From assembly GCF_005239225.2 (NCBI RefSeq), contig NC_133297.1:20200147-20264146 (forward strand): a stretch of DNA of 64,000 bases, in the 5' to 3' direction. Below the pieces are notes generated by a model. The model searched no databases. It had not been told where the DNA came from and saw nothing but the letters and a program-made list of their open reading frames with translations. Position 1 is the stretch's first letter; every line of letters starts with the position of its first letter. Origin of the DNA: Populus alba (lineage: Eukaryota; Streptophyta; Magnoliopsida; Malpighiales; Salicaceae). A program made the translations under genes and the position numbers. This document shows positions 13,841 through 63,324 of the stretch, in pieces.

Positions 13841-15431
13841 ATGGCTGAAGAATTTAACCAATCGCTTCATAATGAGAATAACCATGTGAGAACACTTAGA
13901 GACCACATGAATCCCACAAGAACAAGTGCACCCTCATGCATAGTTCTCCATCCTGATGCATCTCATTTTAATTTTAAGCCAGACATTATTCAACTTTTAC
14001 CTTCTTTTCATGGCTTAGACTTATAAAATCCATACTTGCATTTAAGGGAATTTGAGGAGGTCTGTAACACATATAATTACTCAAATTGTAACATGAACAT
14101 CATTAGATTAAAGCTTTTTCCTTTTTCATTAAAAGATAAAGCTAAAACATGGCTACAAATTTTGAGATCAGGATTTATTCGTGCTTGGGATGAAATGCAA
14201 CAACAATTTTTAAAGAAGTTTTTTCCGTCTCACAGAACAAACTCTTTCAAAAGACAAATCATCACTTTCACTTAAAAGCCAGGAGAAACATTTTACCAAT
14301 GTTAGAATAGGTATCGAGACTTGCTTAATACTTGCCCTCATCATGGTTTTGAAACATGGAGATTGGTTTCATATTTTTATGAAGGGTTAACACCTAGAGA
14401 TAGGCAAATGGTTGAATTGATGTGCAATGGAACTTTTGAAGATAAAGACCCTAATGAAGCAAAGGAGTACCTCGACTTGCTAGCAGAAAATGCTCAAAAT
14501 TAGGATACCACAAGTACTTATAAGGCACCAAGTAAAACTCAACCTCATACATCAAATGGAGGTATGCATAACCTTAGGGAAGATCATAACCTCCAAGCCA
14601 AGTTTGCATCTTTAGCTAGAAAAGTCGAAGCACTTGAATTGAAAAAGAGTGGTCAATTAAAATCTCTTCAAGACATTATGTGTCAAATATGTGAAACCAA
14701 TGAACACTCAATAAATGATTGTCCAACTTTGCCTTCTTTTAGGGAATGCCTCCATGAACAAGCCCATGCTTTAAATAGTTTCCAAAGGCCCAATCATAAC
14801 CCATACTCATAAACATATAACCCTAGTTGGAGAAATTACCCAAAATTCAGTTGGAAGAGTGATAACAACAATGCACAAACTTCACAACCACTGTTTCAAG
14901 CACACCATAATTTCTAAAATTCTCATGGATATGCACCTCCTTATGCTCCCCTCCTAGAAGAAATCTTGAGGAAACATTGCATGCATTCATTGAAAAGCAG
15001 GAGGCAATCAACACTCAACTTGCTCAAGGCATGACAGATTTTAAAGATACTCTTGCAAAGTTAACATTTGCTCTCAGTTTCCAAGAGAAAGGTAAGTTTT
15101 CATCTCAACCACATCAAAATTCAAAAGGGCAATACAATGCAAATGCAAGTAGTTCTGGAAGCCAACACATGGATCAAGTCAAATTAGTCATCACTCTTCG
15201 CAGTGGTAAGGTTATTGAAAAACCCACTCTTGAACCTTGTGAGAAAGATGATGAGTTAATCTTTGAGGGTAAGGAAGGGGTTGTATCTTAATATTGTAAA
15301 GAAAAAACTGATTCTCCGCCAACACTTCATTTTCCTCATGCCATGACTAAACAAACAAAAGTCAATCACAATTCTGAAATCTTTGAAACTTTCAAACAGG
15401 TAAGGATCAATATACCTTTGTTGGATGCTAT
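13841..15431 (+). pseudogene. A1 gag (Athila-like), cut by A2
   Basis: The start at 13841 (MAEEFNQSLHNENN) is shared with A2 and A3. Blocks in order are NPTRTSAPSC, IIQLLPSFHGLDL, LHLREFEEV, KLFPFSLKDKAKTWLQ, the FLKKFFPSHRTNSFKR capsid core, YEGLTPRDRQMVELM and the zinc knuckle CQICETNEHSINDC (C-x2-C-x4-H-x4-C). A basic tail with ITLRSGKVIEKP follows. Five in-frame stops (14024, 14273, about 14306, 14501 and 14810) replace Glu, Gln, Trp, Trp and Gln, mostly by C-to-T or G-to-A changes, and at least one frameshift follows at about 14955. The gene ends at DAI, where A2 enters; GCTAT (15427-15431) is the left target copy. Confidence 0.88.
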
Positions 15432-17075
15432 TGACACGACCTTTTCTTTCTTCTCCCAAGTGCAAGAGTGTCGAAGTAATAAATAACACGGCAAGATCAG
15501 GGTCGAACAACAGGGAGGTTAACTATATAAATTATCAATAACAACAACACAACAACAATAACAACAACAACAACAACAACAATAATAATACTAATAATAA
15601 TTAGTAGTAGTAGTAGTAGTAGTAATAATAGAAATAGTAGTAGTGATGATAATAATAATAATGATAGTAATAATAGTAATGGTAATAATAAAGAAGACTT
15701 TGAGATGTAAGATTAACATGAGGATTAAACAAAAACAAATGTCAAAGTTAGAGGATCCACTAATGGTACTTCAAACATGTATAGTATAAACTCTTATTAC
15801 TCAACTGGAAACCACACACAAAGGAGGTTCCAATCAGATTATAAATTGTTAACATGATTGCATTAATTATCTTATTTGAGCAATGCCAATACTTGTAAAT
15901 ATTATCAGGTATTCTTGGTGATAGCTTATGTTAACAACAAATCAAGTTACTTTCATAGCACAGGTGTAAGTTATACCATATAGTTGGGCTATGAAAGTGC
16001 CAAGCATTTGTTATACCAAGGGGTGTTCAACACAAATATAGATTAACCATTTAACAAATATGGTATTAAGAGTGAGTAAGATAATAAATATAAAACATGT
16101 TAGTATCAAGCATTAAATTCCATGTTGAGTCTATACTATACTTATTCTTACTTCATTAGTGTAACCTTTTCACCTTGACATAATAGATTTAGCTAAACAT
16201 AATGAAAGAAAGAAACATAAATAAACAAGATAAGAACATAATTATATAAGTAAAGGAAAGGAAATGAAAAGCATAAACAAGAGATTAATATAACATAAAA
16301 TAAAACTTAAACATTACAAAATACAAAGAAAGAGAGCAAGCGCATGATCTTGATCTAAACACTAAGATGTCTAAATGCATGGAAAATGCCTCCTTTTATA
16401 GGCCAAAATTTGGAACTATTGATTTGATGAATAATTGTTGAGTGGGTGGCCACATCTTGACTTGGTAACAATCCTTATCTTCTTGTCTGAACAAAATGTC
16501 ATTGCTAATGTCAAAATTTGAACCACCTTTATCATGAAAGTTCTAGGAAATTGTCTCAGCTTTCCAGGAAAAACAATTGAGGTCATTTGGACTTCTAGAA
16601 CTCCAGATATGGGCTAAACACTGAACCGTGTCTAGGCTGCAAGACAGATTCGAACTTCTCCGTTGTTGCTATTATTTCAACTTGAAAATGATCTTTTTAA
16701 ATCTTGGACTCCACGTGAAAGTTTTAGGAATATGTCTTAGCTTTCCATCCATATAAAGAAGATCTAAATCCGAGATCTACAGCTCCAGATATGACCTAAT
16801 TACCGAACAGTGTTCTAGTTTGGACTGAATCGACACCACTTTTCTAAGCTTCACCCTCTCTTTATCTTCACAATTTTAGTAGTTGAATTCATGAATCAAT
16901 CCTTTGATTTATGTGATAGGCTTGCATTTAAGATGAACATTTACCATATATTAAGGTATCTTAAAGTATCTGACTTGTTATTATAAAACATGTTTTAGTT
17001 AAGAAGTTATTGATACTTTAAGTGCAAAATGACGATATAAAACCTTGAAAAAAATGCACTTTTAAGTACTAATCA
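15432..17075 (-). repeat. A2 3' LTR
   Basis: The LTR runs TGACACGACC to AAGTACTAATCA (1644 bp). The internal sequence of A2 abuts it at 17076. The TATA box on the minus strand is at 16393-16400. A long trinucleotide tract (AAC, AAT and TAG units) spans about 15536-15690. The outer ten bases (ACCTTTTCTTTC) differ from the usual ACCAAAAGATTGAT at the LTR end, a local change at the integrated terminus. Confidence 0.9.
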
Positions 17076-17710: not shown

Positions 17711-18180
17711 CTTATCTACGTTTTTATTATCATCAATATTATCAATTTCTTTTTCTTTTTTTGCAAATTATATACAATCCCTTTTCCTTAGTTGTTACAT
17801 TTAACAAAAGAACATAAATAATGTAATAAACCAATGCATAACCCACAATCATATGTTAAAGTGTGTGTGTGAAAATGAAGGTTTAAGAATACTTGTTAAA
17901 TGAGTATATGAGCAGGATCAAGTAATAACAATGCGAGAGTTTGTAAACCTGAATATTTCAAGAAGTATTATGATAGACCTTGGTAATGATACTTACTAAG
18001 ATGCATCTCAAGAGTAAATAAAATTTCCTCCTTACTGTGCCATCCTAATAAAAATACTTACTAAGATTTATCTCAAGAGTTAATAAAACTTACTCCTTAC
18101 TCTGCCATCCTAATAACAATTTTGTCAAATGATTTTAATAATAGCAAAAACAGTTCGTAAGTTATTTTTTTTTAATGTCA

Positions 18181-18415: not shown

Positions 18416-19017
18416 TTACCAATTTAGGCGACTCATGCATGGATCAATGACAGGGATAAAAGATTGTAGTTGGTCAATCAATTGTTCAACAATAGTAGCA
18501 GAGTTATGAATTGTCGTGTCGAAGATGTTAGAAATTCATGTTCCACAGCTTGATCAAGAAAAGACAACAAATTATCATAGAAACCATTAACATTTAATAA
18601 ACCTATAAGTTTATGGTGAATGTACAGTTGGGTCAAAGAGGAAATATGAAATATCTCTTCCAATGTGCCCAGACCACCTGGTAAGGTAATGAAGGCATCA
18701 ACATGGTTAAACATGGCATTTAATCGATCAGACATTGTGAGGACTTGTAGTTCCTCTTCAATTGTTTTTATAATGATGTTCCCATTTGCTAAATCTTTGG
18801 GGACAACCCCTAAAACTTGACTGCCTTCTAAAAATAGAACTATTGACACACACCCTGTTAACCCAAGGCTGCCTCCCCCATACACTAAATGAATCTTTCT
18901 CTCAGCTAGTACCTCACCAAGATGATTTGCTGATTCTAAAAACTCTTTTTCTTTCCCAGGACTGGATCCACCGAAAACAAAAAAATTTCTTATGTGATGA
19001 CTTGAGGAACCTGCCAT
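18416..19017 (-). pseudogene. LOG: Intronless LOG-like cytokinin riboside 5'-monophosphate phosphoribohydrolase (cargo of A2)
   Basis: LOG enzymes release active free-base cytokinin from its riboside 5'-monophosphate in one step. The frame starts at 19017 (MAGSSSHHIRN) and is open for 179 residues. It shows VFGGSSPGKEKEF (14-26), VYGGGSLGLTG (45-55), SDRLNAMF with R98, and the signature LPGGLGTLEEIFH (112-124) with E121. R98 and E121 match the Arg and Glu conserved in the family. A frameshift near 18515 disrupts the end; another frame continues EQLIDQLQSFIP to RLNW and a stop at 18416, giving the family's usual length of about 200. Plant LOG genes normally have several introns and this copy has none, so it looks retro-captured. 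It lies downstream of the Cys-rich gene within A2. Confidence 0.88.
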
Positions 19018-19264: not shown

Positions 19265-19808
19265 CTATAGGTCAAAGATAGGCTTCCCATCCAGTTTTTT
19301 AAAAAACTGGCAAACAGGGTCTTTTTTAGTCAGATTCCCAAAACTAAGTCGAGCATGTTCTTTATGGAATTGTGGCCATAAATCATGAATTGCATGATGC
19401 ACATCTCCACTAAGATGCGTCTCAAGGGTCAATAGAAGATTATCTAAAGACTCCTTACTCAGGCCATCCTTAATGAATTGTATTTTATCTTTATGGTTTA
19501 CAGATACCATTCCTAAAAAATAACATGTCACATTACAAGTCCATCTAGCACATTTATGACAGACTTTCAGTTGTTTTGCACGACGTTTCTTTGTAAAAGT
19601 GTTTTTACTTGTTCCAGGAATTTATGAAATGAAAGAATTGGAGGACTCACCTGATAACCTTTGCTTCAATTAGCAAGCGAATATCTTCAGGAATTCCATG
19701 ATTCATTAACAACCTCAATCTTGCACACCTAGCACGGTAAATTTTTGTAATCGCATTTGGAGGCAAAGCAGGAAAATGCCTTATTAATTTTTCAAGAGTA
19801 GTGTCCAT
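19265..19808 (-). pseudogene. Basic Cys-rich cargo protein, resembling viral nucleic-acid-binding proteins
   Basis: The start is at 19808 (MDTTLEKLIRHFPALPP). The N-terminal half is helical and Arg-rich (IYRARCARLRLLMNHGIPED). The middle has RRAKQLKVCHKCARWTCN followed by VTC, that is an Arg-Arg-Ala-Lys block and C-x2-C-x4-C-x3-C. The C-terminal half (VSVNHKDKIQFIKDGLS, then LLLTLETH and LTKKDPVCQFF) ends with a stop at 19265. Intact length would be about 180. A 5-bp deletion at about 19650 and a 2-bp loss near 19620 break the frame. The basic block next to a four-Cys motif resembles nucleic-acid-binding or silencing-suppressor proteins of Betaflexiviridae-type plant RNA viruses; this is a resemblance, not a proven homology. 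A host origin is possible. A3 has the same gene. Confidence 0.6.
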
Positions 19809-20018
19809 TTTCAAATGAGAATTGAAGAAGAGATTCAAAGAAGGGAGAAAGAGCAAAGAATTGTACAAATATATACATATATCAGTTATTATAGGAAAAC
19901 TGAAAGAACCGACTTAAGTCACGGAGTACCATTATCCGCCATTTGATCGGGGTGAGAGAGAGACTAGCAAAACAAAAGTTATACCAAAACAAAACACACA
20001 AAAATGTGAGAAAAAGAA
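19809..20018 (-). promoter_or_regulatory. Spacer between pol and Cys-rich gene, with TATA-like promoter
   Basis: The 210-bp spacer contains, on the minus strand, TATGTATATATTTGTAC about 60 bases before the start codon, followed by a pyrimidine-rich leader (GCTCTTTCTCCCTTC). A3 has the same layout (TATATATT at 45425-45432, ATG at 45492). This suggests that the cargo gene had its own promoter, but there is no expression evidence. Confidence 0.4.
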
Positions 20019-21340
20019 TCAATCTTTATATACAGGATCACTTAATTCAATAAAGTCATTTTCAACTGAAAAATTATCAAAATAAACTTTTAAACGATGC
20101 CCATTTACCTTGAAAACATTGTCATTCTTTGGATTTTTGATATCACAGGCCCCATATGGATACACATGTTTCACAATAAAAGGACCACTCCATCTTGATC
20201 GTAGTTTTCCAGGAAATAAATGGAGTCGAGAATTATAAAGCAAGACTTTTTTACCAACATTGAATGTTTTTCTCAATATTTTCTTGTCATGAAACTCTTT
20301 GATTCTTGCTTTATGAATTCTTGAATTGTCATATGCATTATTTTTTATTTCCTCAAGCTCATTTATTTGTAATTTTCGCAGCTGACTAGCATTATCAAGG
20401 TTTGAATTGAAAGCTTTAATAGCCCAATAAGCTTTATGTTCAATTTTCCAGAGGCAAGTGACAAGGTTTTTCATAGACTACTCTATAAGGTGACATACCT
20501 AATGATGTTTTATAAGTAGTTTGATAAGCCCAAAGTGCATCATTAAGTCTTAAAGACCAGTCTTTCCTATTAGGGTTTGCTATTTTCTCCAAGATCTGTT
20601 TGATCTCCCTATTAGCAAGCTCTACTTGTCCACTTGTCTAAGGGTGATAAGGGGTGGAAACTTTGTGCGTGATTCCATATTTCTTCACTAAAGAATCAAA
20701 TGGCTTGTTGCAGAAATGTGTTCCACCATCACTTATCATGGCTCGAGGGATTCCAAATCGACTCAAAATATTGTCTTTCAAAAACTTTATCATTGTTTTG
20801 TGATCATTGTTTCGACTTGGAATTGCCTCTATCTATTTTGAAACATAATCTATTGTGACTAATATGTACATAAAACCAAATGATAGAGGAAATGAACCCA
20901 TGAAATCTATACCCCAACAGTCAAAGATCTCAATGACAAGAATATGATTTAAAAGCAACATGTGATGTTTTGGAATAGATCCCAACTTTTGACAATTTTC
21001 AAAAGTCTTGCAGAATGCATTTGAGTCCTTGATCATGGTGAGCCAATAAAATCCACTTTGTAAGATTTTTTTAGTTGTCTTTTTTAACAAGAAATGACCC
21101 TCACATGCCTTAGAATGACAAAATTTAATGACACTACTTACCTCATTGTCAGGAATGCATCTTTGAAATATTTGATCAGGACAATATTTAAAAAAAAAAG
21201 GGTCTTCCCAATAAAAGTTTTTCACTTCGTTCAAGAACTTTCTTTTGTCTTGGGTACTCCAATAAGTTGGCAATTGTCCTGAAACAAAAAAATTAACAAT
21301 ATTAGCAAACCAAGGCATTATAGATATGGAAAGTAAAGAT
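20019..21340 (-). pseudogene. A2 integrase
   Basis: Integrase inserts the cDNA. The N-terminal zinc region is readable (FCHSKACEGHF, then CENCQK). In the core, IFDCWGIDFMGSFP holds the first Asp (about 20900), AMISDGGTHFCNK the second (about 20720), and [14 protein letters not shown] the Glu (about 20610). A stop replaces Gln just before it (HP-stop-TSGQ). The C-terminal part (FNVGKKVLLYNSRLHLFPGK, RSRWSGPFIVKHVYPYG) ends DPVYKD with the stop at 20019. No chromodomain is seen. Frameshifts are near 20475 and 20833. Confidence 0.85.
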
Positions 21341-22930
21341 TCATCAGGAAAGTAGTCATCGATTGGTGTAATGTTAGATTTCGAATCTGTTGTCAATCTT
21401 GACAAATGAACTGCGACAACATTTTCGTTGCCTTTCTTGTCTTTAATTGTGATATCAAATTCTTGAAGTAAAAAAATCCACTGCACCAATCTCACCTTAG
21501 AATCTTTCTTAAAAAGAAGATATTTCAATACTGCATGATCACTAAAAACAACAATAGGTGAGCCAACAAAATAAGACCTGAATTTATCACATGCAAATAC
21601 TACTGCAAGTAATTCTTTTTCAGTGGTGGTGTAATTCATTTTAGCATTATTTAAAGTTTACTTGCATAGTAAATCATATAAGGTTTCTTATCTTTTCTAT
21701 CCCAAAACAGCACCCACGACATAATCACTAGCATCACACACTAATTCAAAAGGTTATAATCAATCAGGAGATTGAATGACAGGAGCAGAAGTAAGTAAGT
21801 TTTTAAGTTTAACATAGGCTTTTTCACATTGTTCAGTCCATTCAAAAATATTATCTTTTGTTAGAAGGTTACTCAAGGGCTTAGATATTACACTAAAATC
21901 TTTGATGAACCTTCTGTAAAAACCAACATGTCCTAAGGATGATCTAACATCCTTAATAGATTTTGGTGTTGGTAAGTTGGGAATTAACTCGATTTTAGAT
22001 TTGTCAACCTCAATTCCTTTCGATGAAACAATGTGACCAAGTACAATGCCGTTTATTACCATAAAGTGACATTTTTCCCAATTTAGTATAAGATTTTTCT
22101 CTTCACACCTACTCAAAACCTTTTTTAAGTTAGTTAAACAATCATCAAATGAATCACCAAAAACAGAAAAATTATTCATAAAAATCTCAAGAAAACATTC
22201 AACCATATCATTGAATATGCTAAGCATGCATCTTTAAAACGTGGCTCATGCATTATATAATCCAAAAGGCATCCTTCGATATGCAAAAGTAGCAAATGGA
22301 CATGTGAAAGTAGTCTTCTCTTGATCTTCCAATGCAATTTCAATTTGATTATAACCTCAATAGCCATCTAGGAAACAATAAAATTCATGACCTGCAACTC
22401 TTTCTAGGATTTAATCCATGAAAGGTAAAGGGAAATGATCTTTTCTAGTCATTGAATTAAGTTTCCTATAGTCAATGCACATGCCCCAACCAGTAATAGT
22501 CCTAGTTGGAATTAACTCATTTTTCTCATTTATTATCACAGTGACTCCAGACTTTTTTGGTACAACTTGGGCAGGACTTACCCATTTGCTGTCAGAAATA
22601 GGATAAATGATTCCATTATCTAAAAGCTTAATGACTTCATTTTTCACTACTTCTTTCATATTAGGATTAAGCCTTCGTTGCATTTCTCTAGAGGGTTTAG
22701 CATTTTCCTCCAAATAAATTCTGTGTGTGCAAATCAAAGGGCTAATTCCTTTTATGTCAGCTATGGTCCATCCTAATACATTTTTGTGCATTTTCAGAGT
22801 CTGTAATAACTTACCTTCTTGATGTGCATTAGGTTTGGAAGAGATTATTATTGGAAAAGTTTCATTTTCTCCCAAAAATGAGTATTTGATATTCAATGGT
22901 AACAACTTCAAATCAGGTTTTAGTGGTTGA
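21341..22930 (-). pseudogene. A2 reverse transcriptase and RNase H
   Basis: The RT start shows LLPLNIKYSFLGENETFP and the ISPLICTHRI, YPISDSKWVSPAQVVPKKSG and MCIDYRKLN blocks (22911-22411). The active-site block reads EIFMNNFSVFGDSFDD (about 22165-22190): both catalytic Asp residues of FMDD have become Asn. Thumb motifs [14 protein letters not shown] follow. RNase H has MNYTTTEKELLAVVFACDKF and SDHAVLKYLL. Stops and frameshifts lie near 22400, 22230 and 21650-21760. The catalytic loss alone would abolish RT activity. Confidence 0.86.
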
Positions 22931-23700
22931 ACACTTAAAGGTATTGACTCAATTGATCATGGTGGCAATTCCTTAATTTGTGGTCTCCAATTACATGCCT
23001 TTAATTCCTCCTAAAAGTAGACCATTTGCAAATCATCAGATTCATCAATCTCAGTTTCACTAGAAATGGTTTGAAATTGATCATGAACTAATTTTTCAAT
23101 AAAGTCCACTTCCTGTAAATCATTATTATCTCTAGGTTGCTTGTAAATGTTGAAAATATTCATCTCCAATGTCATGTTTCCAAATGATAGCTTCATCAGT
23201 CCATTCCTACAATTAATCAATGCATTAGAAGTGGCAAGAAATGGACATCCTAAAATGATAGGAATTGAATTACATGCTTCAACAGGTTGTGTATCCAAGA
23301 CAACAAAATCTATAAGGTAAATGAATTTATCAACTTGTACTAACACATCCTCAACTATTCCTCTAGGCACTTTTACCGATCTATCAGTAAGTAAAAGAAT
23401 TACAGAGGTTGGTTTTAACTCACCTAGATTGAGACTTTAAAAGACTGAATATGGAAGTAAATTCACACTAGCTCCAAGATCAAGTAAGGCTCTTTCAATT
23501 TTATGTTCTCCAATAAAGCAAGAAATTGTAGGACAACCAAGGTCTTTATATTTCAAAGCATTATTGTTCTGAAGAATGACACTTACTTGTTCGACTAAAC
23601 AGGCTTTCTTTTTTACATTCAATTTTCTCTTCACAATGCACAAATCTTTCAAAAATTTAGCATAAGAGGGAACTTGTTTCATAGCATCCAATAAAGGTAT
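22931..23700 (-). pseudogene. A2 aspartic protease
   Basis: The active site is LLDLGASVNLLPYSVF (about 23437-23485), with D-L-G-A as in Athila-type proteases. ADRS and VPRGIVEDVLVQVDKFIY follow, then IPIILGCPFLATSNALINCR. One stop lies near 23437-23400 and a few frameshifts are present. The N-terminal lead-in (DAMKQVPSYAKFLKDLC) is conserved between families A and B. Confidence 0.82.
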
Positions 23701-25268
23701 ATTGATCCTTACCTATTTGAAAGTTTCAAAGATTTCAGAGTTATGATTGACTTTCCTTTGTTTGGTCATGGCATGAGGAAATGGGAGTGCTGGTGGGGAA
23801 TCAACCTCAACCTTTTCTTTGCAATGTTCAAGTTCAACCTCTTCCTTACCCTCAGAGATAGACTTATCATCTTTCTCACAAGGTTTAAGAGTGGGTTTTT
23901 TAATAACTTTACCACTACAAAGAGTGATGACTGATTTAACTTGATCCATGTGTTGGCTTCCGGAACTACTTGTATTTACATTGTATTGCCCCTTTGGATT
24001 TTGTTATGGTTGAGATGGAAACTTACCTTTCTCTTGGAAACTGAGAGCAGATGTCAATTTTGAAAGAATATCTTTAAAATCTATCATGCTTTGAGCAAGT
24101 TTAGTGTTGATTGGTTCCTGCTTTCAATGAATGCATGCAATGTTTCCTCAAGATTTTTTCTAGAAAGGGGAGCATAAGGAGGTGCATATCCATGAGAATT
24201 TTTAAAATTATAGTGTGCTTGAAACGGTAGCTGTGAAGTTTGTGCATTGTTGCTATCACTTTTCAAACTAAAATTTGGGTGATTTCTCTAACCAGGGTTA
24301 TATGTTTGTGAGTATGGGTTATGGTTCGACCTTTGAAAACTGTTTAAAGCATGGGCTTGTTTATGGAGGCATTCCCTAAAAGAAGGCAAAGTTGAACAAT
24401 CATTTATTGAGTGTTCATTAGTTTCACATATTTGACACACAATGTCTTGAAGAGATTTTAATTGACCACTCTTTTTCAATTCAAGTGCGTTGACTTTTCT
24501 AGCTAAAGATGCAAACTTGGCTTGGAGGTCATGATCTTCCCTAAGGTTGTGCATACCTCCACTAGATGTATGAGGTTGAGTTTTACTTGGTGCCTCATAA
24601 GTACCTGTGGTGTCCTAATTTTGAGCATTTTCGGCTAACAAGTCCAGGTACTCTATTGCTTCATTATGGTCTTTATCTTCAAAAGTTTCATTGCACATTC
24701 CTCTAGGTGTTAACACTTCATAAAAATATGAAACCAATCTCCATGTTTCAAAACCATCATGAGGGCAAGTATTAAGCAAGTCTTGATACCTATCCCAACA
24801 TTAGTAAAATGTTTCTCCTAGGTTTTGAGTGAAAGTGATTATTTGTCTTTTGAAACAGTTTGTTCTATGAGACGGAAAAAGCTTCTTTAAAAATTGTTAT
24901 TGCATTTCATCCCAAGCATGAATAGATCCTTGTCTCAAATTTTATAGCCATGTTTTAGCTTTATCTTTTAATGAAAAAGGAAAAAGGTTTAATCTAATGG
25001 TGTTCATGCTACAATTTGAGTCATTATAAGTGTTATAGACCTCCTCAAATTCCCTTAAATGCAAGTATGGATTTTCTAGGTCTAAGCCATGAAAAGAAGA
25101 TAAAAGTTGAATAATGCCTGACTTCAAATTAAAATGAGATGCATTAAGAGGGAAAACTATGCATGAGGGTGCACTTGTTCTTGTGGGATTCATGTGGTCT
25201 CTAAGTGTTCTCACACGGTTATTCTCATCATTCTCATTATGAAGTGATTGGTTATCTTTTTCGGCCAT
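23701..25268 (-). pseudogene. A2 gag
   Basis: The start at 25268 (MAEKDNQSLHNEND) is chosen because A1 and A3 begin in the same way; the upstream codons are leader. Blocks in order are NPTRTSAPSC, LHLREFEEVYNTYND, KDKAKTWL (stop at 24942 from a frameshift), RQFFPSHR-type capsid core, the zinc knuckle CQICETNEHSINDC at about 24390-24440, NHNPYSQTYNPG, and ITLCSGKVIKKPTL. Several stops are present, including one where Trp is expected. No slippery site between gag and pol is evident; family members read gag-pol as one frame. Confidence 0.85.
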
Positions 25269-25474
25269 ATTTTCTGAAAATGATGAGGATACCCTACAAA
25301 GTCTACCACTTAATGTACGTGACCAAACTCTCATGCACATATAAGAAGAGAATAAAAGGAAGAAAAGAAAAGAGAAGAAAAAGAAAAAAAAACAAAGGAA
25401 ACATAAGTTAGATAAAATGAAAAGTGAAAAGAGAAAATAAAATAAATATTATAATTTATATAAGAATTTACCTC

Positions 25475-25491: not shown

Positions 25492-25496
25492 GAACT

Positions 25497-25666
25497 GACA
25501 CGACCAAAAGATTGATATCTTCTCCCAAGTGCAAGAGTGTCGAAGTAATAAATAATCCGGCAAGACCGAGTTAGAACCACAAGGAGGTTAACTATATAAA
25601 TTATAAATAACAACAACACAACAATAACAACAACAACCATAATAATAATAACAATTAGTATTAATA

Positions 25667-25701
<35 letters not shown>

Positions 25702-25984
25702 GATAGTAATAATAATAATAAAGAGGATTTTGAGATGTAAGATTAACGTGATGATTAAACAAAAACAAATATCAAGGTTAGAGGATCCACTAATGGTACT
25801 TCAAACAAGTATAGTATAAACTTTTATTACTCAACTGGAAACCACACACAAAGGAGGTTCCAATCAGATTATAAATTGTTAACATGATTACATTAATTAT
25901 CTTATTCGAGTAATGCCAATACTTGTAAATATTATCAGGTATTCATGGTGATAGCTTATGTTAACAACAAATCAAGTTCCTTTC
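25497..25984 (-). repeat. A2 5' LTR, truncated by B1
   Basis: It starts TGACACGACCAAAAG next to the primer site and runs 488 bp until a family B LTR begins at 25985. It includes the trinucleotide tract (about 25605-25730). The missing remainder would resume after B1, but that end was deleted (see the junction near 59250). Confidence 0.88.
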
Positions 25985-30761: not shown

Positions 30762-30766
30762 AATTT

Positions 30767-40319: not shown

Positions 40320-42055
40320 TGATTAGTACTTAAAAGTGCATGTTTATCAAGGTTTTATATCATCATTTTGCACTTGAAGTATCAATAACTCAACTAAAGC
40401 ATGTTTTATAATAACAAGTTTGATATTATAAGATACCTTAATTTATGGTAAATGCTCATTTTAAATGCAGGACTATCACATAAATAAAAGGATTGATTGA
40501 TGAGTTTAAGTATTGAAAGTTAAAGGACAAAGAGATGGCCAAACTCAGAAAAGAGATGTCGGTGCAGTCCAAATCGGAACATTGCTCGGTAATTGGATCA
40601 TATCTGGAGCTCTAGATCTCGGATTTAGGTCCATTTTATATGGATGGAAAGGTAAGACAAAGGCCTACAACTTTCATGAGGAGCCCAAGATCTAAGAAGG
40701 CCGTTTTGAAGTCCAAATTGAAGGAACAACGAAGAAGTCCGAAGCTGTCCTGCAGCCCAGATACTATTTAGTGTTCAGCCCATATCTTGAGTTCTAGAAG
40801 TCCAAATGACCTCATCTTTTTTTTGTTGGAAAGCTGAGACAATTTCCTAGAACATTCCTGAGGATTCTGGGCAAAATATGATGTTAGCAATGACGTTTTG
40901 TTCAGACAAGAAGATAAGGATTGTCACCAAAGTCAAGATGTGGCCACCCACTCATCAATTAGTCAACAAATCAATAGTTCCAAATTTTGGCATATAAAAG
41001 GAGGCACTTACCATGTATTAAGGCATCTTGGTTTCCAGATCAAGATCATGCTCTTGCTTTCTCTCTTTGTATTGCTTATGTTTTGCTTTCATTAATATCA
41101 AGTTTATGCACTTAATTTCCTTTCCTTTACTTAGTTAACTTCTTTCTCATTTATGTTTCTTACCTTGTTCATTTATGTTTCTTTCTTTCATTAATGTTTA
41201 GCTAAGTTAATTATGTCAAGGTGAAAAGGGTACACTAATGGTGTAAGAATAAATATAATATAAACTTAACATGGACCTTAACGTTGGATACTAACATGTT
41301 TTATATTTGTTATCTTGTTCACTTTTAATACTTTGCTTGTTAAATGGTTAATCTAGATTTATGTTGTATAACACTTGGTACAACAAATACTTGGTACTTT
41401 CATAGCCCATACTGTATGGTATAACCGACACCTGAGCTATGAAAGGGACTTGATTTTGTTGTTAACATAAGTTATAATCATGAATGCCTGCAACATTTAC
41501 AAGTATTAGCTTTATTCGAATAAGATAACTAATGTAATCATGTTAACAATTTATAATCTGATGGGAACCTCCTTTATGTGTGATTTCCAATTGAGTAATA
41601 AGAGTTTATATTATACTTGTTTGAAGTACCGTTAGTGGATCCTCTAACCTTGACATTCGTTTTTATCATTGGTTAATCCTTACATTAATCTTCCAACTCA
41701 AAGTTCTCATTAATTTCTTCATCTTCTTTCTATTACTACTACTACTACTATTGTTATTATTATTATTGTTATTGTTGTTATTTACATTCTGTAATATATC
41801 CCTTTGATCTTTTCATAAAACTCAGTATATAGGCTGGAAACCTGTGACCCGGTCTTTTGGATCATTCTCAGGTGTAACAACGCCACGTACTGAGTATTGT
41901 AATTATTATTGTTATTATTATTGTTGTTGTTGTTGTTTTGTTATTTATAATTTATACAATTAACCTCTCTGTGGTTCGACCCCGGTCTTGCCGGGTTATT
42001 TATTACTTCGACACTCCTGCACTTGGGAGAAGACATCAATCGTTTGGTCGTGTCA
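40320..42055 (+). repeat. A3 5' LTR
   Basis: It runs TGATTAGTACTTAAAAGTGC to TGGTCGTGTCA (1736 bp). The TATA box is at 40993-41000. Trinucleotide tracts lie at about 41735-41780 and 41900-41940, separated by about 115 bp (41783-41895) that no other A LTR here has. This is the most complete A LTR in the window and defines the LTR end missing from A1. Confidence 0.92.
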
Positions 42056-42061
42056 AGTTTT

Positions 42062-42079
42062 TGGCGCCGTTGCCGGGGA
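42062..42079 (+). other. A3 primer-binding site (tRNA-Asp type)
   Basis: TGGCGCCGTTGCCGGGGA, six bases after the LTR, is the standard Athila-type site complementary to tRNA-Asp, without visible mutations. Confidence 0.88.
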
Positions 42080-42293
42080 GGTAAATTCTTGTATAAATTA
42101 TAATATTTAATTTATTTTCTCTTTTCACTTTTCATTTTATCTATTTTTGTTTTCTTTGTTTTGTTTTGTTTTGTTTCTTTTTCTTCTATTTTCTTTTCTT
42201 CCTTTTATTCTCTTCTTACACGTGCATGAGAGTTTGGTCACGTACATTAAGTGGTCGACTTTTGTAGGGTATCTTCATCATTTTCAGAAAAAT

Positions 42294-43860
42294 ATGGCCG
42301 AAGAAGATAATCAATCGCTTCATAATGAGAATAATGAGAATAACCGTATGAGAAACACTTAGAGACCACATGAATCCCACAAGAACAAGTGCACCCTCAT
42401 GCATAGTTTTCCCTCCTGATGCATCTCATTTTAATTTTAAAGCCCAGACATTATTCAACTTTTACCATCTTTTCATGGCTTAGACTTAGAAAATCCATAC
42501 TTGCATTTAAGGGAATTTGAGAGAGGTCTGTAATACCTATAATAACTCAAATTGTAGCATGAACACCATTCGATTAAAGCTTTTTCCTTTTTCATTAAAA
42601 GATAAAGCTAAAACATGGCTACAAATTTTGAGACCAGGATCTATTCATGCTTGGGATAAATGCAACAACAATTTTTAAAGAAGTTTTTTCCATCTCACAG
42701 AACAAACTCTTTCAAAAGACAAATCATCACTTTCACTCAAAAGCCAGGAGAAACATTTTACCAATGTTGGGATAGGTATCGAGATTTGCTTAATACTTGC
42801 CCACATCATGGTTTTGAAACATGGAGATTGGTTTCACATTTTTTATGAGGGTTTAACACCTAGAGATAGGCAAATGGTTGAATTGATGTGCAATGGAACT
42901 TTTGAAGATAAAGACCCTAATGAAGCAATGGAGTACCTAGACTTGCTAGCTGAAAATGCTCAAAATTGGGACACCACAGGTACTTATGAGGCACCAGGTA
43001 AAACTCAACCTCATACATCTAGTAGGTATGCACAACCTTAGGAAGATCATGACCTCCAAGTCAAGTTTGCATCTTTAGCTTAGAAAAGTCGAGGCACTAG
43101 AATTAAAAAAGAGTGGTCAATTAAAATCTGTTCAAGACATTGTGTGTCAAATCTGTGAAACAAATGAGCATGCAACCAATGATTGTCCAACTTTGCCTTC
43201 TTTCAAGGAATGCCTCCATGAACAAGCCCCATGCTTTAAACAGTTTCCAAAGACCCAACCATAACCCATACTCACAAACATATAACCCTGGTTGGAGAAA
43301 TCACCCAAATTTTAGTTGGAAGAGTGATAGCAACAATGCACAAACTTCACATCCACCGTTTCAAAGCACACCATAATTTTCAAAATTCTCATGGATATGC
43401 ACCTCCTTATGCTCCACCTCCTAGAAGAAATTTTGAGGAAACATTGCATGCATTCATTGAAACAGGAGACAATCAAACACTCAACTTGCTCAAAGCATGA
43501 CCGATTTTAAAGATGCTCTTGCAAATTAACAACTGCTCTCAGTTTCCAAGAGAAAGGTAAGTTTTCTTTCTCACCACAGCAAAATCCAAAGGGGCAATAC
43601 AATGCAAATGCAAGTGGTTCTGGAAGCCAACACATGGATCAAGTCAAATCAGTCATCACTCTGCGTAGTGGTAAGGTTATTGAAAAACCCATTCTTGAAC
43701 CTTGTGAGAAAGATGATGAGTCTATCTCTGAGGGTAAGGAAGGGGTTGAACCTGAACATTGCAAAGAAAAGGCTGATTCCCCGCCAGCACTTCCATTTCC
43801 TCATGCCATGACCAAAGAAAGGAAAGTCAATCACAACTCTGAAATATTTGAAATTTTCAA
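42294..43860 (+). pseudogene. gag: A3 gag
   Basis: The start MAEEDNQSLHNENN (42294) matches A1 and A2. The readable blocks are KAKTWLQ, FLKKFFPSHRTNSFKR, TFTQKPGETFYQCWDRYRD, YEGLTPRDRQMVELM, a zinc knuckle (CVKSVKQ... frame broken; CETNEHATNDC pattern at about 43155-43190), HNPYSQTYNPGWRNHPNF and ITLRSGKVIEKP (43640-43690). At least seven one-base indels, mostly in homopolymers, shift the frame, while very few stops by substitution are seen. Sequencing error is a real alternative to decay. Confidence 0.83.
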
Positions 43861-44570
43861 ACAGGTAAGGATCAATATACCTTTGTTGGATGCTATTAAA
43901 CAGGTTCCTTCCTATGCTAAATTTTTGAAAGATCTGTGCACTGTGAAGAGAAAACTGAATGTGAAAAAGAAAGCCTTTTAGCCGAACAAGTAAGTGCCAT
44001 TCTTCAGAACAATTAATGCTTTGAAATATAAAGACCCTGGTTGTCCTACAATTTCTTGCTTTATTGGAGAACATAAAATTGAAAAGAGCCTTAACTTGAT
44101 CTTGGAGCTAGTGTGAATTTACTTCCATATTCAGTTTTTCAAAGTCTCAATCTAGGTGAGTTAAAAACCAACTTCTGTAACTCTTTTTACTCGCCGATAG
44201 ATCTGTAAAAGTGCCTAGAGGAATAATCGAAGATGTGTTAGTACAAGTCGATAAATTCATTTATCCTGTGGATTTTATTGTCTTGGACACGCAACCTGTT
44301 GAAGCATGTAATTCATTTCCTATTATTTTTAGACGTCCATTTCTTGCAACTTCTAATGCATTGATTAATTGTAGGAATGGACTCATGAAGTTATCTTTTG
44401 GAAACATAACATTGGAGATGAATATTTTCAACATTTGCAAGCAACCTGGAGATGATAATGATTTACAAGAAGTAGATCTTATTGAAGAATTAATTCATGA
44501 TCAACTTGAATCTACTTTGAGTAAAATTGAGTTGGATGAATCTGAAGATTTGCAAATGATTTATTCTCAG
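43861..44570 (+). pseudogene. A3 aspartic protease
   Basis: The blocks are INIPLLDAIKQVPSYAKFLK (43871 onward), the active site LDLGASVNLLPYSVF at about 44095-44140 (frame broken just before it), PRGIIEDVLVQVDKFIYPVD, IFRRPFLATSNALINCR and LQEVDLIEELIHDQ. Conservation beyond the active site is good. A 1-2 base indel separates the two halves. Confidence 0.8.
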
Positions 44571-45262
44571 GAAGAAATCACGGATGAAAAAGGCACCGAA
44601 AATATTGATGCCGATCTTTTGTCAAGAGTGACAACCGATTCGAGATCTGACATTACACCAATCGATGACTACTTTCCTGATGAATCTTATTTTCTGTCTC
44701 TACGATGCCTTGGTTTGCTAATATTGTTAATTTTCTTGTTTCAGGACAATTGCCAGCTCATTGGAGTACCCAAGACAAAAGAAAGTTCTTGAACGAAGTA
44801 AAGAACTTTTATTGGGATGACCCTTAATTTATTCAAATATTGTCCTGATCAAATATTTCGAAGATGCATTCCTGACAATGAGGTAAGTAATGTCATTAAA
44901 CTTTGTCATTCTGAAGCATGTGGGAGTCAATTCTCATCAAGAGAGACGACTGCAAAAATCTTACAAAATGGATTTTATTGGCCCACCATGTTCAAGGATA
45001 ACACATGCATTCTGCAAAACTTGTGAAAATTGTCAAAAAGTTGATACTGGTCAAAAAAGTTTTGCTTTATAATTCTCAACTCCATTTATTTCCTGAAAAA
45101 CTAAGATCAAGATGGAGCGGTCATTTATTTTGAAACACGTGTATCCTTATGGGGCCCTTGATATTGAGAATCCAAAGAATGACAATGTTTTTCGAAGGTA
45201 AATAGACATCGTTTGAAAGCTTACTTTGATGAGTTTCCTAGTGAAAATGATCCATTGGTTTG
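44571..45262 (+). pseudogene. A3 pol remnant (RNase H end, integrase ends only)
   Basis: Protease is joined directly to the last RNase H codons (EKGTENIDADLLSR, ITPIDDYFPDES), removing RT and most of RNase H. The integrase zinc region follows (CPDQIFRRCIPDNEV, NGFYWPTMFKD, CENCQK), then a second junction at about 45040 joins CENCQK to the C-terminal block (QKVLLYNS-like, then KHVYPYGALDIENPKNDNVF). The repeated GTCAAAAAGTT at that junction suggests a microhomology deletion. The catalytic core is absent. Confidence 0.8.
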
Positions 45263-45491
45263 AATAATCTTATTGATAAAGGTTGATTTTTTTTTCTCAC
45301 ATTTTTTTTTGTTGCTTTTTTAGTGTGACTTTTGTTTGCTAGTCTCTCACCCCGGTCAAATGGCGGATAACGGTACTCCGTGACTTAAGTCGGTTCTTTC
45401 AGTTTCCCAAATAACTGATATCTGTATATATTTGTACAATTCTTAGCTCTTTCTCCCTTCTTTGAATCTCTTCTCCAATTCTCTTTTGAAA
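45263..45491 (+). promoter_or_regulatory. A3 spacer before the Cys-rich gene, TATA-like promoter
   Basis: It contains TATATATT at 45425-45432, 60 bases before the ATG, followed by a pyrimidine-rich leader (CTCTTTCTCCCTTCTTTG). It is homologous to 19809-20018 of A2. The CACCCCGGTCAAATGGCGG block (about 45348) is conserved in both copies. Confidence 0.42.
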
Positions 45492-46041
45492 ATGGACATC
45501 ACTCTTGAAAAGTTGAAAAGGTATTTTCCCGCTCTGCTCAGAATGCGATTACAAAAATTTTACCGTGCTAGGTGTGCAAGATTGAGGTTGTTAATGAATC
45601 ATGGAATTCCTGAAGATATTCGCTGGCTAATTGAAGCAAAGGTCCGATTATCAGGTGAGTCCTCCAATTCTTTCATTTCACACATGCCTGGAACAGGTAA
45701 AAAGCACTTTTGCAAAGAACGTCGTGCAAAACGACTGAAAGTCTGTCATCGATGTGCCAGATGGACTTGTAATGCAACATGTCGTTCTTTAGGAATGGTA
45801 TCTGTAAACCGTGAAGATAAGATACAATTCATTAAGGATGGCCTGAGTAAGGGGTCTTTAGATAATCTTTTGTTGACCCTTGAGACGCATCCTAGTGGAG
45901 ATGTGCATCGTGTAATTCATGATTTATGGCCACAATTCCATAAAGAACATGATCGACTTAGTCTTGGGAAATCTGACTAAAAAAGACCCTGTTTGCCAGT
46001 TTTTAAGAAAACTGGATGGGAAGCCTATCCCCGACCCATAG
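45492..46041 (+). pseudogene. Basic Cys-rich cargo protein (A3 copy)
   Basis: The frame from 45492 (MDITLEKLKRYFPAL) is open to 45980. It shows IYRARCARLRLL-like helices (here FYRARCARLRLLMNHGIPED), then KERRAKRLKVCHRCARWTCN and ATC, keeping C-x2-C-x4-C-x3-C, and REDKIQFIKDGLSKGSLDNL. A 1-base insertion near 45968 causes the early end; the original frame continues through DPVCQFF-like codons to a stop at 46039-46041. A second difference from A2 is the missing Pro-Pro-Asn region near residue 15. The Cys and Arg residues are the best-kept part in both copies. It resembles viral nucleic-acid-binding proteins; origin unproven. Confidence 0.62.
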
Positions 46042-46286
46042 AGGGCGTTTTAAGCCGTTCTTGGACGTAAAACCAAGGGAAGATGTGAGCCACAATCACA
46101 ACTACCTATACATACATGCTTTTTCAAAATAAATAATTAATAAAGAGAGAGAGTTTGTGAGACTACAGTTGGCCTACATATAGGTGGTATGATTGCATTT
46201 TTACTTTTTCATCTATAAATTCTTCTCTTCCTTCCCTTCATTTCTACTCATCCCATATATTCATCAAATATAGAAGTGTTGTAGAA
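46042..46286 (+). promoter_or_regulatory. A3 spacer between Cys-rich gene and LOG
   Basis: The spacer is 245 bp. It has AATAAATAATTAATAAAG at 46127-46144 (polyadenylation-like), CTACATATAGG, TATAAAT at 46214-46220, and a pyrimidine-rich leader before the LOG ATG at 46287. Order and spacing match A2 (247 bp). Confidence 0.42.
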
Positions 46287-46455
46287 ATGGCAGGTTCCTC
46301 AAGTCATCATATAAGAAATATTTGTGTTTTCGGTGGATCCAGTTCTGGGAAAGAAAAAGAGTTTTTAGAATCAGCAAATCATCTTGGTCGGGAACTAGCT
46401 GAGAGAAAGATTCATTTAGTGTATGGGGAGGTAGGTAGCCTTAGGTTAATGGGAG
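46287..46455 (+). pseudogene. LOG: LOG-like cargo gene, 5' part, cut by gap (A3 copy)
   Basis: The first 56 codons are open: MAGSSSHHIRNICVFGGSSS, GKEKEFLESANHLGRELAER and HLVYGEVGSLRLMG. They match the A2 copy closely. The Gly-rich loop reads GEVGSLRLMG instead of GGGSLGLTG, with one extra codon, which would probably disturb nucleotide binding. The rest, with the PGGxGTxxE signature, lies in the N stretch. ICVFGG is nearer to the family consensus than NFFVFGG of A2. Confidence 0.85.
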
Positions 46456-59253: not shown

Positions 59254-60591
59254 AAGCATGTAATTCAATTCCTGTCATTTTAGGACTTCCATTTCTTGCA
59301 ACTTCTAATGCATGCATTGATTAATTGTAGGAATGGATTGATGAAGCTATCATTTAGAAACATGACATTAGAGATGAATATTTTCAACATTTGCAAGCAA
59401 CCTGGAGATGATAATAATTTACAGGAAAAAGTAAAGGCATGTAATTGGAGATCATAAATTGAAGAATTGCCACCACGATCAATTGAGTCCATACCTTCAA
59501 GTGTTCAACCACCAAAATCTGATTTGAAGCCATTACCATTTAATCTCAAATACTTATTTTTTAGGAGAAAATGAAACTTTTCTGGTATTAAATCTCTTCC
59601 AAACTTAATGCATATCAAGAAGGTAAGTTATTACAGACTCTGAAAATGCATAAAGATGTATTAGGATGGACCATAGGTGACATAAAAGGAATTAGCCCTT
59701 TGATTTGCACACACAAGATTTATTTGGAGGAAAATGCTAGACCCTCTAGAGAAAATGTAACAAAGGCTTAATCCTAATATGAAAGAAGTAGTGAAAAATG
59801 AAAAAATTAAGCTTCTAGATAATGGAATCATTTATCCTATATCTGACAGCAAATGGGTATGTCCTACCCAAGTTATACCCAAAAGTCTGTAGTCACTATG
59901 ATAACAAATGAGAAAAATGAGTTTATTCCAACTCAGACTATTACTGGTTAGTGCATGTGCATTGACTATAAAAAACTTAATTTAATGACTAGAAAAGATC
60001 ATTTCCCTTTACCTTTCATTGATCAAATCCTAAAAAGAGTTGCAGGTCATGAATTTTTATTGTTTCCTAAATGGCTATTCAGGTTACAACCAAAATTTAA
60101 ATTGCATTGGAAGATCAAGAAAAAGAACTACTTTCACATGTCCATTTGGTACTTTTGCATATCGAAGAATGCCTTTTGGATTATGTAATGCACTAGCCAC
60201 ATTTCAAGATGCATGCTTAGCATATTTAGTGATTTGGCTGAATGTTTCCTTGAGATTTTTATGGATAACTTTTCTATTTTTGATGATTCATTTGATGATT
60301 GTTTGACTAACTTAGAAAAGGTTTTGAGCAGGTGTGAAGAGAAGAATCTTGTACTGAATTGGGAAAAATGTCACTTATGGTAACAAACGGCATTGCACTT
60401 GGTCACATTGTTTCATCGAAAAGAATTGAGGTTGACAAATCTAAAATCGAGTTAATTGCCAACTTACCAACGCCAAAATCTGTTAAAGATGTTAGATCAT
60501 TCTTAGGACATGCTGGCTTTTATAGAAGGTTCATCAAAGATTTTAGTGTAATATCTAAACCATTGTGTAACCTTGTGTCTTTTGGTTTTGT
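59254..60591 (+). pseudogene. A0 (or A1) pol fragment: protease end and RT
   Basis: After the junction in GTTG, the plus strand reads VEACNSIPVILGLPFLATSN (protease), a shortened linker (PPRSIESIPSSVQPPKS), then RT blocks [58 protein letters not shown] and an active site that reads FMDN (60258-60270), with the second Asp changed to Asn. [13 protein letters not shown] ends near 60540. At about 60591 it jumps to the 3' untranslated region, so RNase H, integrase and the cargo genes are missing. Many stops and indels. Assignment to A0 rests on adjacency to the A0 3' LTR. Confidence 0.8.
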
Positions 60592-60702
60592 TAATAGCAC
60601 ATTTTTTTTTTTTATTTCTTATATTTGTTTAAGTGTGTTTCAGGTTTGTTAGTATTCGTTGTTTCAGGTGATGTCTTCTATACTCCATCTTTCTACCTTA
60701 GG

Positions 60703-60740
60703 ACATTGAGGACAATGTCTCGTTTTGGTTGGGGGGAGAG
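60703..60740 (+). promoter_or_regulatory. Hairpin plus upstream polypurine-like tract (A0)
   Basis: ACATTG-AGGA-CAATGT forms a perfect 6-bp stem, followed by a G-rich tract. It is the same arrangement as in family B, although the surrounding sequences differ. Confidence 0.5.
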
Positions 60741-61129
60741 GGTAGTAGTTGACATTAAAAAAAAACTTATTAACTGTTTTTGCTATTATTAAAACCTTTT
60801 GACAAAACTGTTATTACTAGGACGGGTGAGTAAGGGAGAATTTTATTGACTCTTGAGACGTATCTTAGTAAACATTTTCCAATGGTTATTTGCAATAATA
60901 ATAACCAGGTTTATCACATACTTCTCTTGAAATATTCAGGTTTACAAACTCTCGCATTTTTATCACTTAATTTTGTTCATATACTCATTTAACAAGTATT
61001 CTTAAACCTTTATTTTCACACACACTTTAACATATGATTGTGGGTTGCATATTGGATTATTACATTATTTATGTTCTTTTGTTAAAGGTAACAACTAAGG
61101 GAAAGGGAAAGTATATAATTTGCAAAAAA

Positions 61130-61440
61130 AAAATGATAATAAAAACGTAGATAAGTTTAGTTTCGTGGCCTCCCTAACCTAAGTAATTAAGCTCGAAGGG
61201 GTGTTTTAACACCTAATACCCTAAAGTCAACTGACTTGGAAACTATTGGCCCAATGCTTGTTACATGGATTGAGGAGAAAAGCTTAAGCGAATCAAACAT
61301 TGCACTATCTACGTATCAGTATCTGCAACTCGAGTTACTAGGCTTGTAGGGGTGTCTCATCACCTAATGCCCTAAGACCAATTAGTCTGGGAGTCATTAG
61401 CCGAAAGCTCATTATATGGGTTAAAGATGCATTGTGTTTT
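61130..61440 (+). repeat. Duplicated palindromic units in A0 3' region
   Basis: Two imperfect direct repeats 151 bp apart, each with a GGTGT..ACACC-type palindrome followed by CACCTAAT and CCCTAA words. They match 17440-17710 in A2. Confidence 0.7.
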
Positions 61441-61764
61441 AAGTTATATGTCTATATTAAAAAATATATATATAAATTCTCAACCCAAGGAAGTTAACTT
61501 CAAACATTAGAAGAAAAAAAATTTGTATTCTTCCAAGAAAAGCCCAATAACTATATGTTGATATTTTGAGCACAAAAGAAAGGTTTATTAATATCTTGTT
61601 TAAGAGGTATTTGAGCAAATATATGAATTTAATGAGAGTTTGTTTATATGGAAACATTAATGAAAGTCGAATGATGAATGCCTTGCTTTGTGGAATTTGC
61701 AAATTGTTTTTTCTATTTTAACGCTTTAATTACTAAGGACTAGTAATAAGCTGGTTGGCGGGTG

Positions 61765-63324
61765 TGATTAGTACTTAAAAGTGCAATTTTATCAAGGTAT
61801 TATTATCATCATTTTGCACTTGAAGTATCAATAACTCTTTAACTAAAGTATTTTTTATAATAACATATCTAATAATATAAGATACCTTTAATTTATGGTA
61901 AATGTTCATCTTAAATGCAGGCCTATCACATAAATGAAAGGATTGATTGATGAGTTTAAGTACTGAAATTGAAAGGACAAAGAGAGGGCCAAACTTAGAA
62001 AAAAGATGTTGGTGCAGTCTAAATTGGAACACTATTAAGTAATTGGGTCATATCTGGAGTTGTAGATCTCAGATTTAGGTCTGCTTTATATGGATGGAAA
62101 AGTAAGACATAAGCCTACAACTTTCATGTGGAGTCCAAGATTTAAAAAGGCCGTTTTCAAGTTCAAATTATAGCAACAACGGAAAAGTACGAATCTGTCC
62201 TGCAGCCCAGACACTATTCAGTGTTCAACCCATATCTCGAGTTCTAGAAGTCCAAACGACCTCAATTTTTTTTCCTAGAAATGTAAGAAAATTTCCTATA
62301 ACTTTCATGAGTACAAGTGGTTCTAGTTCTAATGTTAGCAATGATGTTTTGTTCAGACAAGAAGATAAGGATTTTCACCAAGTCAAGAGTTGACCACCCA
62401 CTCAACAATTAGTTATCAAATCGATAGTTTCAAATTTTGGCCTATAAAAGGAGGAATTTGCCATACATTTAGGCATCTTGGTTGTTTAGATCAAGATCAT
62501 GCTATTTCTCTATTTATATTTTTTGTAATTCTTAAGTTTTGCTTTCATTATTATCTTGTTTATGCTTTTCATTTCCTTTCATTTACTTAGTTAACTTGTA
62601 TCTTATTTATGTTCTTCTTTTGTTTATTTATGTTTCTCTTCTTCATTATGTTTAGCTAAGTTTATTATGTCAAGGTGAAAAGGTTACACTAATGGTATAA
62701 GAATAAGTATAGTGTAAACTCAACATGGACTTTAATGTTTAATATTAACATGTCTTATCTTTTTATCTTACTAATTCTTAATGCCTTGCTTGTTAAATGG
62801 TTAATCTAGATTTGTGTTGTATAACACTTGGTACAACAAATGCTTGGCACTCTCATAGCCCAACCGTATGGTATAACCTACACATGTGCTATGAAATGAA
62901 CTTGATTTGTTGTTAACATAAGGTAGCATAATAAATTCATGACAATATTTAAAAGTTTAGTGTTACTTAAATAAGATAATTAATATGATCTTGTTAACAA
63001 TTTAAAATGAGCTATTAATGACAAATCATCTGATTGGAACCTCCTTTGTGTGTGGTTTCCAGTTGAATAATAAGAGTTATACTACTATACTTGTTTGAAA
63101 TACCATTAGTGCATCCTTTAACCTTGACATTTTTTTTTATCATTGTTTAATCCTTACATTAATATCCCATGAAATTCTCATAAACTCTTTATTTTATTAA
63201 ATATATATATTATTTGTAATTTATATAGTTCACCTCCCTGTTGTTCGACCCTGGTTTTGTCGAGTTATTTATTACTTCGACACTCCTTCACTGAGGAGAA
63301 GACATCAATCTTTTGGTCGTGTCA
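61765..63324 (+). mobile_element. A0 3' LTR
   Basis: It is 1560 bp, TGATTAGTACTTAAAAGTGC to TGGTCGTGTCA, with a TATAAAAG box at 62443-62450. It is followed by CTAGT (63325-63329), equal to the five bases before 11830. The trinucleotide tract is nearly absent here and replaced by a short TA run (63203). Confidence 0.92.

Follow-up and report, generated by a model that had tools for sequence, protein, structure and literature searches.

A candidate two-gene accessory module, LOG-like and NABP-like, in an Athila-like Ty3/gypsy retrotransposon family of Populus

Extra open reading frames (ORFs) of the LOG type have been met in plant retrotransposons before, and Steinbauerova et al. 2011 (Genetica) reportedly described a LOGL4-like extra ORF in two Athila-like elements. 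In agreement with that study, a YgdH (LOG) domain was found in the LTR-element consensuses of two Citrus species and, with a filter off, of P. trichocarpa, so that the presence of LOG in plant LTR elements is already published (PMC9289625). Those elements resemble the one analysed here in having a LOG-type extra ORF within Ty3/gypsy, Populus being among the hosts; they differ in that the part of the report available to us mentions neither a viral-type nucleic-acid-binding protein (NABP) next to LOG nor non-autonomous carriers, and gives no test of selection on LOG (PMC9289625). Enzyme cargo is likewise present in orchid Ty3/gypsy elements with an m6A demethylase domain (PMC9289625) and in elements with cytosine methyltransferases (PMC5890265); the enzymes are different, and no partner of viral type is seen in the available parts of these two sources. 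Plant aORFs and eORFs lie, as the Populus frames do, between pol and the 3' LTR and in sense orientation, whereas the available sections describe env-like or unknown proteins there and the Populus element has two identifiable families (PMC7264820, PMC6317226). On the viral side, the cysteine-rich/NABP proteins of flexiviruses (carla-, allexi- and mandariviruses) are, in the part of the source available, of similar size to the second Populus frame and likewise have a basic patch followed by a C4 zinc finger (PMC12172455). Unlike them, the Populus protein is encoded by an LTR element, has extra N- and C-terminal parts beyond the Pfam match and has no virus genome around it.

The DNA analysed was a stretch of 64,000 nucleotides of Populus alba contig NC_133297.1 (the window), followed by related copies elsewhere in the genome. 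The reading that we favour, with a probability of roughly 0.6, is that of a Populus Ty3/gypsy (Athila-like) family with two accessory genes, in the order gag-PR-RT-RH-IN-NABP-LOG-3'LTR, both under purifying selection and with activities that we infer from sequence. Three copies, here A, B and the third copy, were located in the window, as follows.

15432..17075, minus strand: 3' LTR of copy A (TGATTAG ... GTGTCA; self-comparison and ends read)
18416..19017, minus strand: LOG-like frame of copy A (open at 18478-19017, 179 aa, ATG at 19017)
19337..19822, minus strand: NABP-like frame of copy A (tblastn with copy B as query)
20019..23370, minus strand: pol of copy A, split over several open pieces that cover the protease region, RT, RNase H and integrase
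24942..25340, minus strand: gag-like open piece of copy A (position as in homologous copies: 5' LTR, gag, protease)
25496..25984, minus strand: 5' LTR remnant of copy A (ends ..GTGTCA; self-comparison and ends read)
40320..46455, plus strand: copy B, same family (RT part of pol deleted; ends at a 500-N gap)
45492..45980, plus strand: NABP-like frame of copy B (open, 162 aa)
46287..46454, plus strand: LOG-like frame of copy B (first 56 codons, up to the 500-N gap; tblastn)
59423..63324, plus strand: third family copy (self-comparison; LTR end read)

LTRs, a primer binding site, a polypurine tract and the domain order gag-PR-RT-RH-IN were found, as in Ty3/gypsy elements. The sequence TGGCGCCGTTGCCGGGGA follows an LTR end in three of the copies studied (L054, L055 and L056), and we take this primer site to be a match to tRNA-Asp. 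Gene order, long LTRs and primer site would fit an Athila-like assignment. The Athila ORF-1 domain (pfam03078) was absent from the frames scanned, which is weak evidence; the domain is given as present in 16% of Athila elements in the available part of PMC6317226.

Copy A is old and damaged. Its 5' LTR was cut at 25984 by another element, the primer binding site lies just inside that LTR (~25473-25490), and the LTR pieces are 84% alike by self-comparison. The gag-like piece at 24942..25340 had no match in a Pfam scan. The pol region is interrupted by stops and frameshifts, with RT_RNaseH and Integrase_H2C2 over their Pfam cutoffs and RVT_1 (9e-5) under its own, and the NABP-like frame is broken into two halves in different frames, its open piece at 19340-19615 matching Carla_C4 (0.0064) and Viral_NABP (0.017), both under cutoff. 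On the plus strand, the gag of a sister copy (13656-15431) breaks off where the 3' LTR of copy A ends (15432), so that copy A appears to be inserted into a member of its own family. In the 3' untranslated region of copy A, two tandem repeats of ~65 bases each were observed (17989-18120), one of which is similar to part of the NABP-like frame (71% over 62 bases), as if copied from it.

The frame at 18416..19017 had been predicted from the letters alone to be a LOG-family gene without introns, with PGGLGTLEE, R98, E121 and both Gly-rich loops, on the element's own strand between pol and the 3' LTR. This description was borne out. The copy A protein matched PF03641 (Lysine_decarbox) at 1.2e-27 and TIGR00730 with 129 bits (cutoff 96), the motif, the two residues and the two loops were all found in the alignment, and the gene is one frame on the minus strand, as gag-pol, between the end of pol (~20019) and the 3' LTR. 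The predicted span stands for its open part, 18478-19017, and fails below 18478, where the LOG-like tail is out of frame. Indeed, the reading frame shifts after about residue 171 and the C-terminal tail continues in another frame to an early TAA at 18416, for which reasons copy A LOG is considered damaged near its C-terminus. As to accessory content, LOG had been correctly recognised, and the NABP-like frame between integrase and LOG had been missed.

The best solved relative of the copy A LOG is Arabidopsis At2g37210 (7e-40), aligned over nearly the full length. Among the 120 relatives in the matches listed, the exact PGGLGTLEE occurs in 72, R98 and E121 are each kept in 95% of those readable there, and an intronless single frame of 217 aa is present in 69; some of these listed relatives have changes in the catalytic motif, e.g. 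PGG to LGG or E to K. The majority residues of 92 relatives were compared with four reference LOGs, two from plants and two from bacteria, and 57 of the 66 columns invariant in the references were found to be kept, against 37 of 112 other columns equal to AtLOG3 as a control (p 2e-12). The nine lost residues include two of the MHxRK motif, where in the majority of the 92 relatives H is replaced by S and K by L. Since these two stand beside R98, full cytokinin-LOG activity is not to be assumed. The NCBIfam cytokinin-LOG equivalog was not reached either (93 bits, cutoff 300), and there is also a match to SLOG cluster 4.

These observations leave room for a LOG-type protein kept for an activity other than cytokinin release, such as another nucleotide hydrolase or a SLOG nucleotide-binding sensor, acting e.g. 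on element RNA or on the nucleotide pool. The lost H and K, the other losses among the invariant columns, the equivalog score and the SLOG match all point that way, as does the fact that two element LOGs (P0003 and P0010) are hardly closer to two plant LOGs (44-49% identity) than to five bacterial ones (39-51%). Against it, most relatives keep R98, E121 and PGGxGTxxE, and the best solved relative, aligned nearly end to end, is a plant LOG; we regard such an activity as a real possibility that is nonetheless less likely than cytokinin release. In the reading that we favour, the gene product would be a nucleoside monophosphate hydrolase, with cytokinin riboside monophosphate as the likeliest substrate, and might favour the dividing or meristematic cells where insertions are inherited; for this we see an even chance.

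In a small tree including two plant LOGs, the element LOGs grouped together with support 100, on a long branch that lies outside the AtLOG3+AtLOG8 pair, and they are ~50% diverged from cellular LOGs. This position and the identities given above make a recent copying of a Populus LOG gene unlikely; the source may be either an old capture from a plant LOG or something else. A search of viral contigs for LOG was without relatives, and a search of genome contigs returned three bacterial LOGs only. Structure predictions (AlphaFold) had pLDDT values of 37 and 45, too low for fold searches.

Within the window, copies A and B, which both retain the interval between pol and the 3' LTR, both carry LOG, whereas the third copy has lost the whole interval, part of pol and NABP and LOG being deleted at ~60563-60574. 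The NABP-like frame of copy B passes PF05515 (24.7 bits, cutoff 23) and fails PF01623 (16.0 bits, cutoff 20.9). An intron in the NABP-like region, suspected from copy A, was rejected, as copy B is open straight through. A direct repeat of 11.3 kb with 98.6% identity (29078-40320 and 46956-58227), the second copy of which begins after the N gap at 46456-46955, was also noted; it is either a recent duplication or an assembly artefact. A second Ty3/gypsy family lies at 29142-39278 and 47020-57185, where gag and pol are open over greater lengths and pol is ~66% identical, at the nucleotide level, to that of the family of copies A and B; tblastn of the window found neither LOG nor NABP-like frame in it.

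The two LOG copies of the original prediction are indeed the two of the window, and they are not the only ones in the genome: 150 LOG frames were scored, the best 150 of 1624 first-look candidates and all with E < 1e-84, and 134 of them had no stop inside the match. From these, the eight best matches (window copy included), 40 taken at about every third position and the copy L058 were sampled; together with nine repeats included for context they make 58 loci, of which 49 have distinct LOG DNA. The LOG frame was open from ATG for at least 217 codons in 41 of these 49 copies. They were taken from the 150 frames that best match the window protein, a choice that favours conserved copies, and the intact share in the whole family may therefore well be lower.

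The arrangement around LOG was read in ten stretches of ~10 kb. Integrase sequence, then NABP, then LOG was the order in all ten, and a 3' LTR lies downstream of LOG in nine, the tenth stretch ending first. RT of this family is visible in four (L052, L058, L060 and L061), and L057 is interrupted by another element beside integrase. In the remaining five (L053, L054, L055, L056 and L059) diverged remnants of RNase H and integrase come straight after the protease, with the family RT missing, and in each of the five LOG is open over 217 codons or more; an RT stretch at 29% identity, 3.6 kb further upstream in L059, was taken for part of another element. A view of the LOG frames as normal host retrogenes, or as domesticated genes, that just happen to sit in old elements would agree with the many open frames and with the constraint described below. 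This was rejected for the copies examined, as the same element parts flank LOG in 10 of 10; the 150 scored copies are moreover spread across many contigs, and variants found in single copies are near neutral, as in element copies and unlike host genes. We hold this explanation to be very improbable.

When the 49 sampled copies were sorted by type, 21 were of the deleted type, 23 had the full integrase C-terminus and five were without class, and LOG was intact in 19, 19 and three of them, respectively. Deleted and full types are intermixed in the LOG DNA tree, which suggests exchange between the types or repeated loss. The LTRs of L053, a deleted-type member, have four differences in 1515 positions, and their near identity indicates that deleted-type elements have moved recently; those of L056, one of the three pairs compared, are 96% and 92% alike in two pieces and clearly not recent. 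The outer flanks of the L055 LTRs are element sequence, with a purine tract before and a primer site after, as in a tandem array sharing LTRs, and because of this array the 99.2% likeness of that pair is not an insertion date. Members that have lost RT retain LOG and also, among the open copies sampled, NABP.

Selection on LOG was evaluated on 40 copies of exactly 217 codons, giving a pooled dN/dS of 0.29. The per-site N/S ratio falls with the number of copies that share a variant, from 0.71 in singletons (50 N, 21 S) to 0.49 in variants present in 2-4 copies (26 N, 16 S) and 0.19 in those present in five or more (9 N, 14 S). Singletons differ from the latter class with a Fisher p of 0.012, the class having 23 variants only. 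When singletons are set against all variants in two or more copies, the set as a whole gives a p of 0.053. In the RT-deleted group (0.96 in singletons vs 0.30 in shared variants) p is 0.031, and in the group whose integrase C-terminus is complete it is 0.005. For comparison, that C-terminus itself, measured in 20 copies, has a dN/dS of 0.54, with 0.63 in singletons and 0.23 in variants of two or more copies. NABP behaves in the same manner: dN/dS is 0.22 in 16 open copies, and N/S declines from 0.79 in singletons to 0.07 in variants of five or more copies (p 0.003). The variants in these frequency tests are not independent, because the copies are related and appear to recombine. A protein-only frequency test, run with 92 of the 120 relatives in the matches listed, did not reach significance (p 0.14), and the LOG pair of the window (A vs B), with a dN/dS of 1.75 from six nonsynonymous and one synonymous changes in 38 codons, was likewise not significant and without power.

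The LOG pattern is what one would predict for constrained source copies whose new insertions are free to decay. Could the two genes instead be passive hitchhikers, picked up once and unused, their conservation reflecting the recent multiplication of few sources? Near-neutral LOG singletons, in the whole set and even more in the RT-deleted group, relatives with altered catalytic motifs and the borderline p of singletons against all shared LOG variants are in keeping with this. Hitchhiking accounts poorly for the scarcity of amino-acid changes among variants of five or more copies in both LOG and NABP, similar to what the integrase C-terminus displays, for the persistence of LOG where RT is lost, and for the survival of most LOG-invariant columns at ~50% divergence from cellular LOGs, and we judge it improbable. 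The original prediction had tied a captured but passive LOG to two copies only or to a dN/dS near 1; given the 134 of 150 frames without a stop, the 41 of 49 open copies and the pooled dN/dS far from 1, passive capture is unlikely. LOG is selected cargo, and is retained also where RT has been deleted.

In the 300 bases upstream of LOG, divergence among 49 copies is 0.040, vs 0.066 at LOG synonymous sites in 40 copies, hinting at a conserved control or leader sequence.

The second extra frame, between integrase and LOG, is 182 aa long in open copies. Four of the 16 open copies were scanned, and all four matched PF05515 (Viral_NABP; 24.3-32.1 bits, cutoff 23) and PF01623 (Carla_C4; 21.6-26.9 bits, cutoff 20.9), the matched residues of the two models overlapping and covering the basic patch and the C4 finger over ~85 aa. 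None of ten shuffled or reversed controls matched either model; three of the ten gave hits at E < 1 to unrelated families, the strongest of which (2.4e-4) fell a little short of its cutoff, so that NABP E-values near that level are not to be overread. Of the 49 sampled copies, 48 have a recognisable NABP-like frame; the search for frames found it open over 182 codons with the expected start in 16 of the 49, and gave no usable frame in 11 of the 49. Its four cysteines are kept in 41/43, 41/41, 44/44 and 44/44 of the copies readable at each position, and the basic, NLS-like patch is nearly invariant across the sampled copies. No relatives of the frame were found in viral contigs, the best hits in PDB and PHROGs had E-values of 0.46 and 0.09, and NCBIfam returned none.

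A short matching region and modest scores are what one might also see if the frame were not related to the viral proteins by descent, either as a basic zinc-finger protein born in the element at the env position and convergent with them, or because the viruses took theirs from elements. Two separate Pfam models exceeding their curated cutoffs in every copy scanned, together with the silence of the controls for both, speak for a common origin, and we consider the alternative rather unlikely. In what is available of PMC12172455, virus proteins of this kind combine a zinc finger with a nuclear localization signal; RNA silencing is suppressed by several of them, and a carlavirus member is a transcription factor that induces hyperplasia. 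By analogy with these relatives, the Populus protein may blunt the small-RNA silencing of the element or may be a nuclear regulator, a proposal for and against which we see the odds as equal. A viral-type NABP or suppressor in retrotransposons was not found in the literature searched, as far as the sources were available, and the available part of a 2011 report on endogenous RNA-virus sequences in plants contains neither 'nucleic acid binding' nor 'cysteine-rich' (PMC3136472).

In the reading that we prefer, that of a selected two-gene module, NABP and LOG would occupy, in fixed order, the place of the usual env-like frame. The first gene would code for a basic protein of 182 aa with a C4 zinc finger, of the type of the cysteine-rich (nucleic-acid-binding) proteins of flexiviruses, and the second for a 217-aa intronless LOG-type enzyme, and both proteins would be made from the 3' part of the element RNA. 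The NABP-like protein may then bind nucleic acid and protect the RNA of the element against silencing, or have a nuclear role, and the LOG-like protein could release free cytokinin bases and favour dividing cells. A more elaborate version, which we think unlikely, is that the module is partly derived from an RNA virus and pairs a viral-type suppressor, guarding the element RNA against small-RNA silencing, or a regulator that turns on cell-proliferation genes like one carlavirus protein, with a cytokinin-releasing LOG, the element being expressed in, and promoting, the dividing cells that feed the germ line; non-autonomous members would keep the module because any copy in the same cell is helped, or because their own RNA is marked.

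As far as our search reached, three things are new: the viral-type NABP partner, the evidence that both genes are under selection, and the finding that members without RT keep them. LOG-carrying plant elements are known, and a benefit of LOG to them is not reported in the literature that we have seen. A selected and abundant LOG, kept also without RT and nearly always paired with a flexivirus-type protein from a family of silencing suppressors, would make of this family a testable transposon with its own counter-defence and hormone tools, and would also be a case of gene sharing between plant RNA viruses and LTR retrotransposons.
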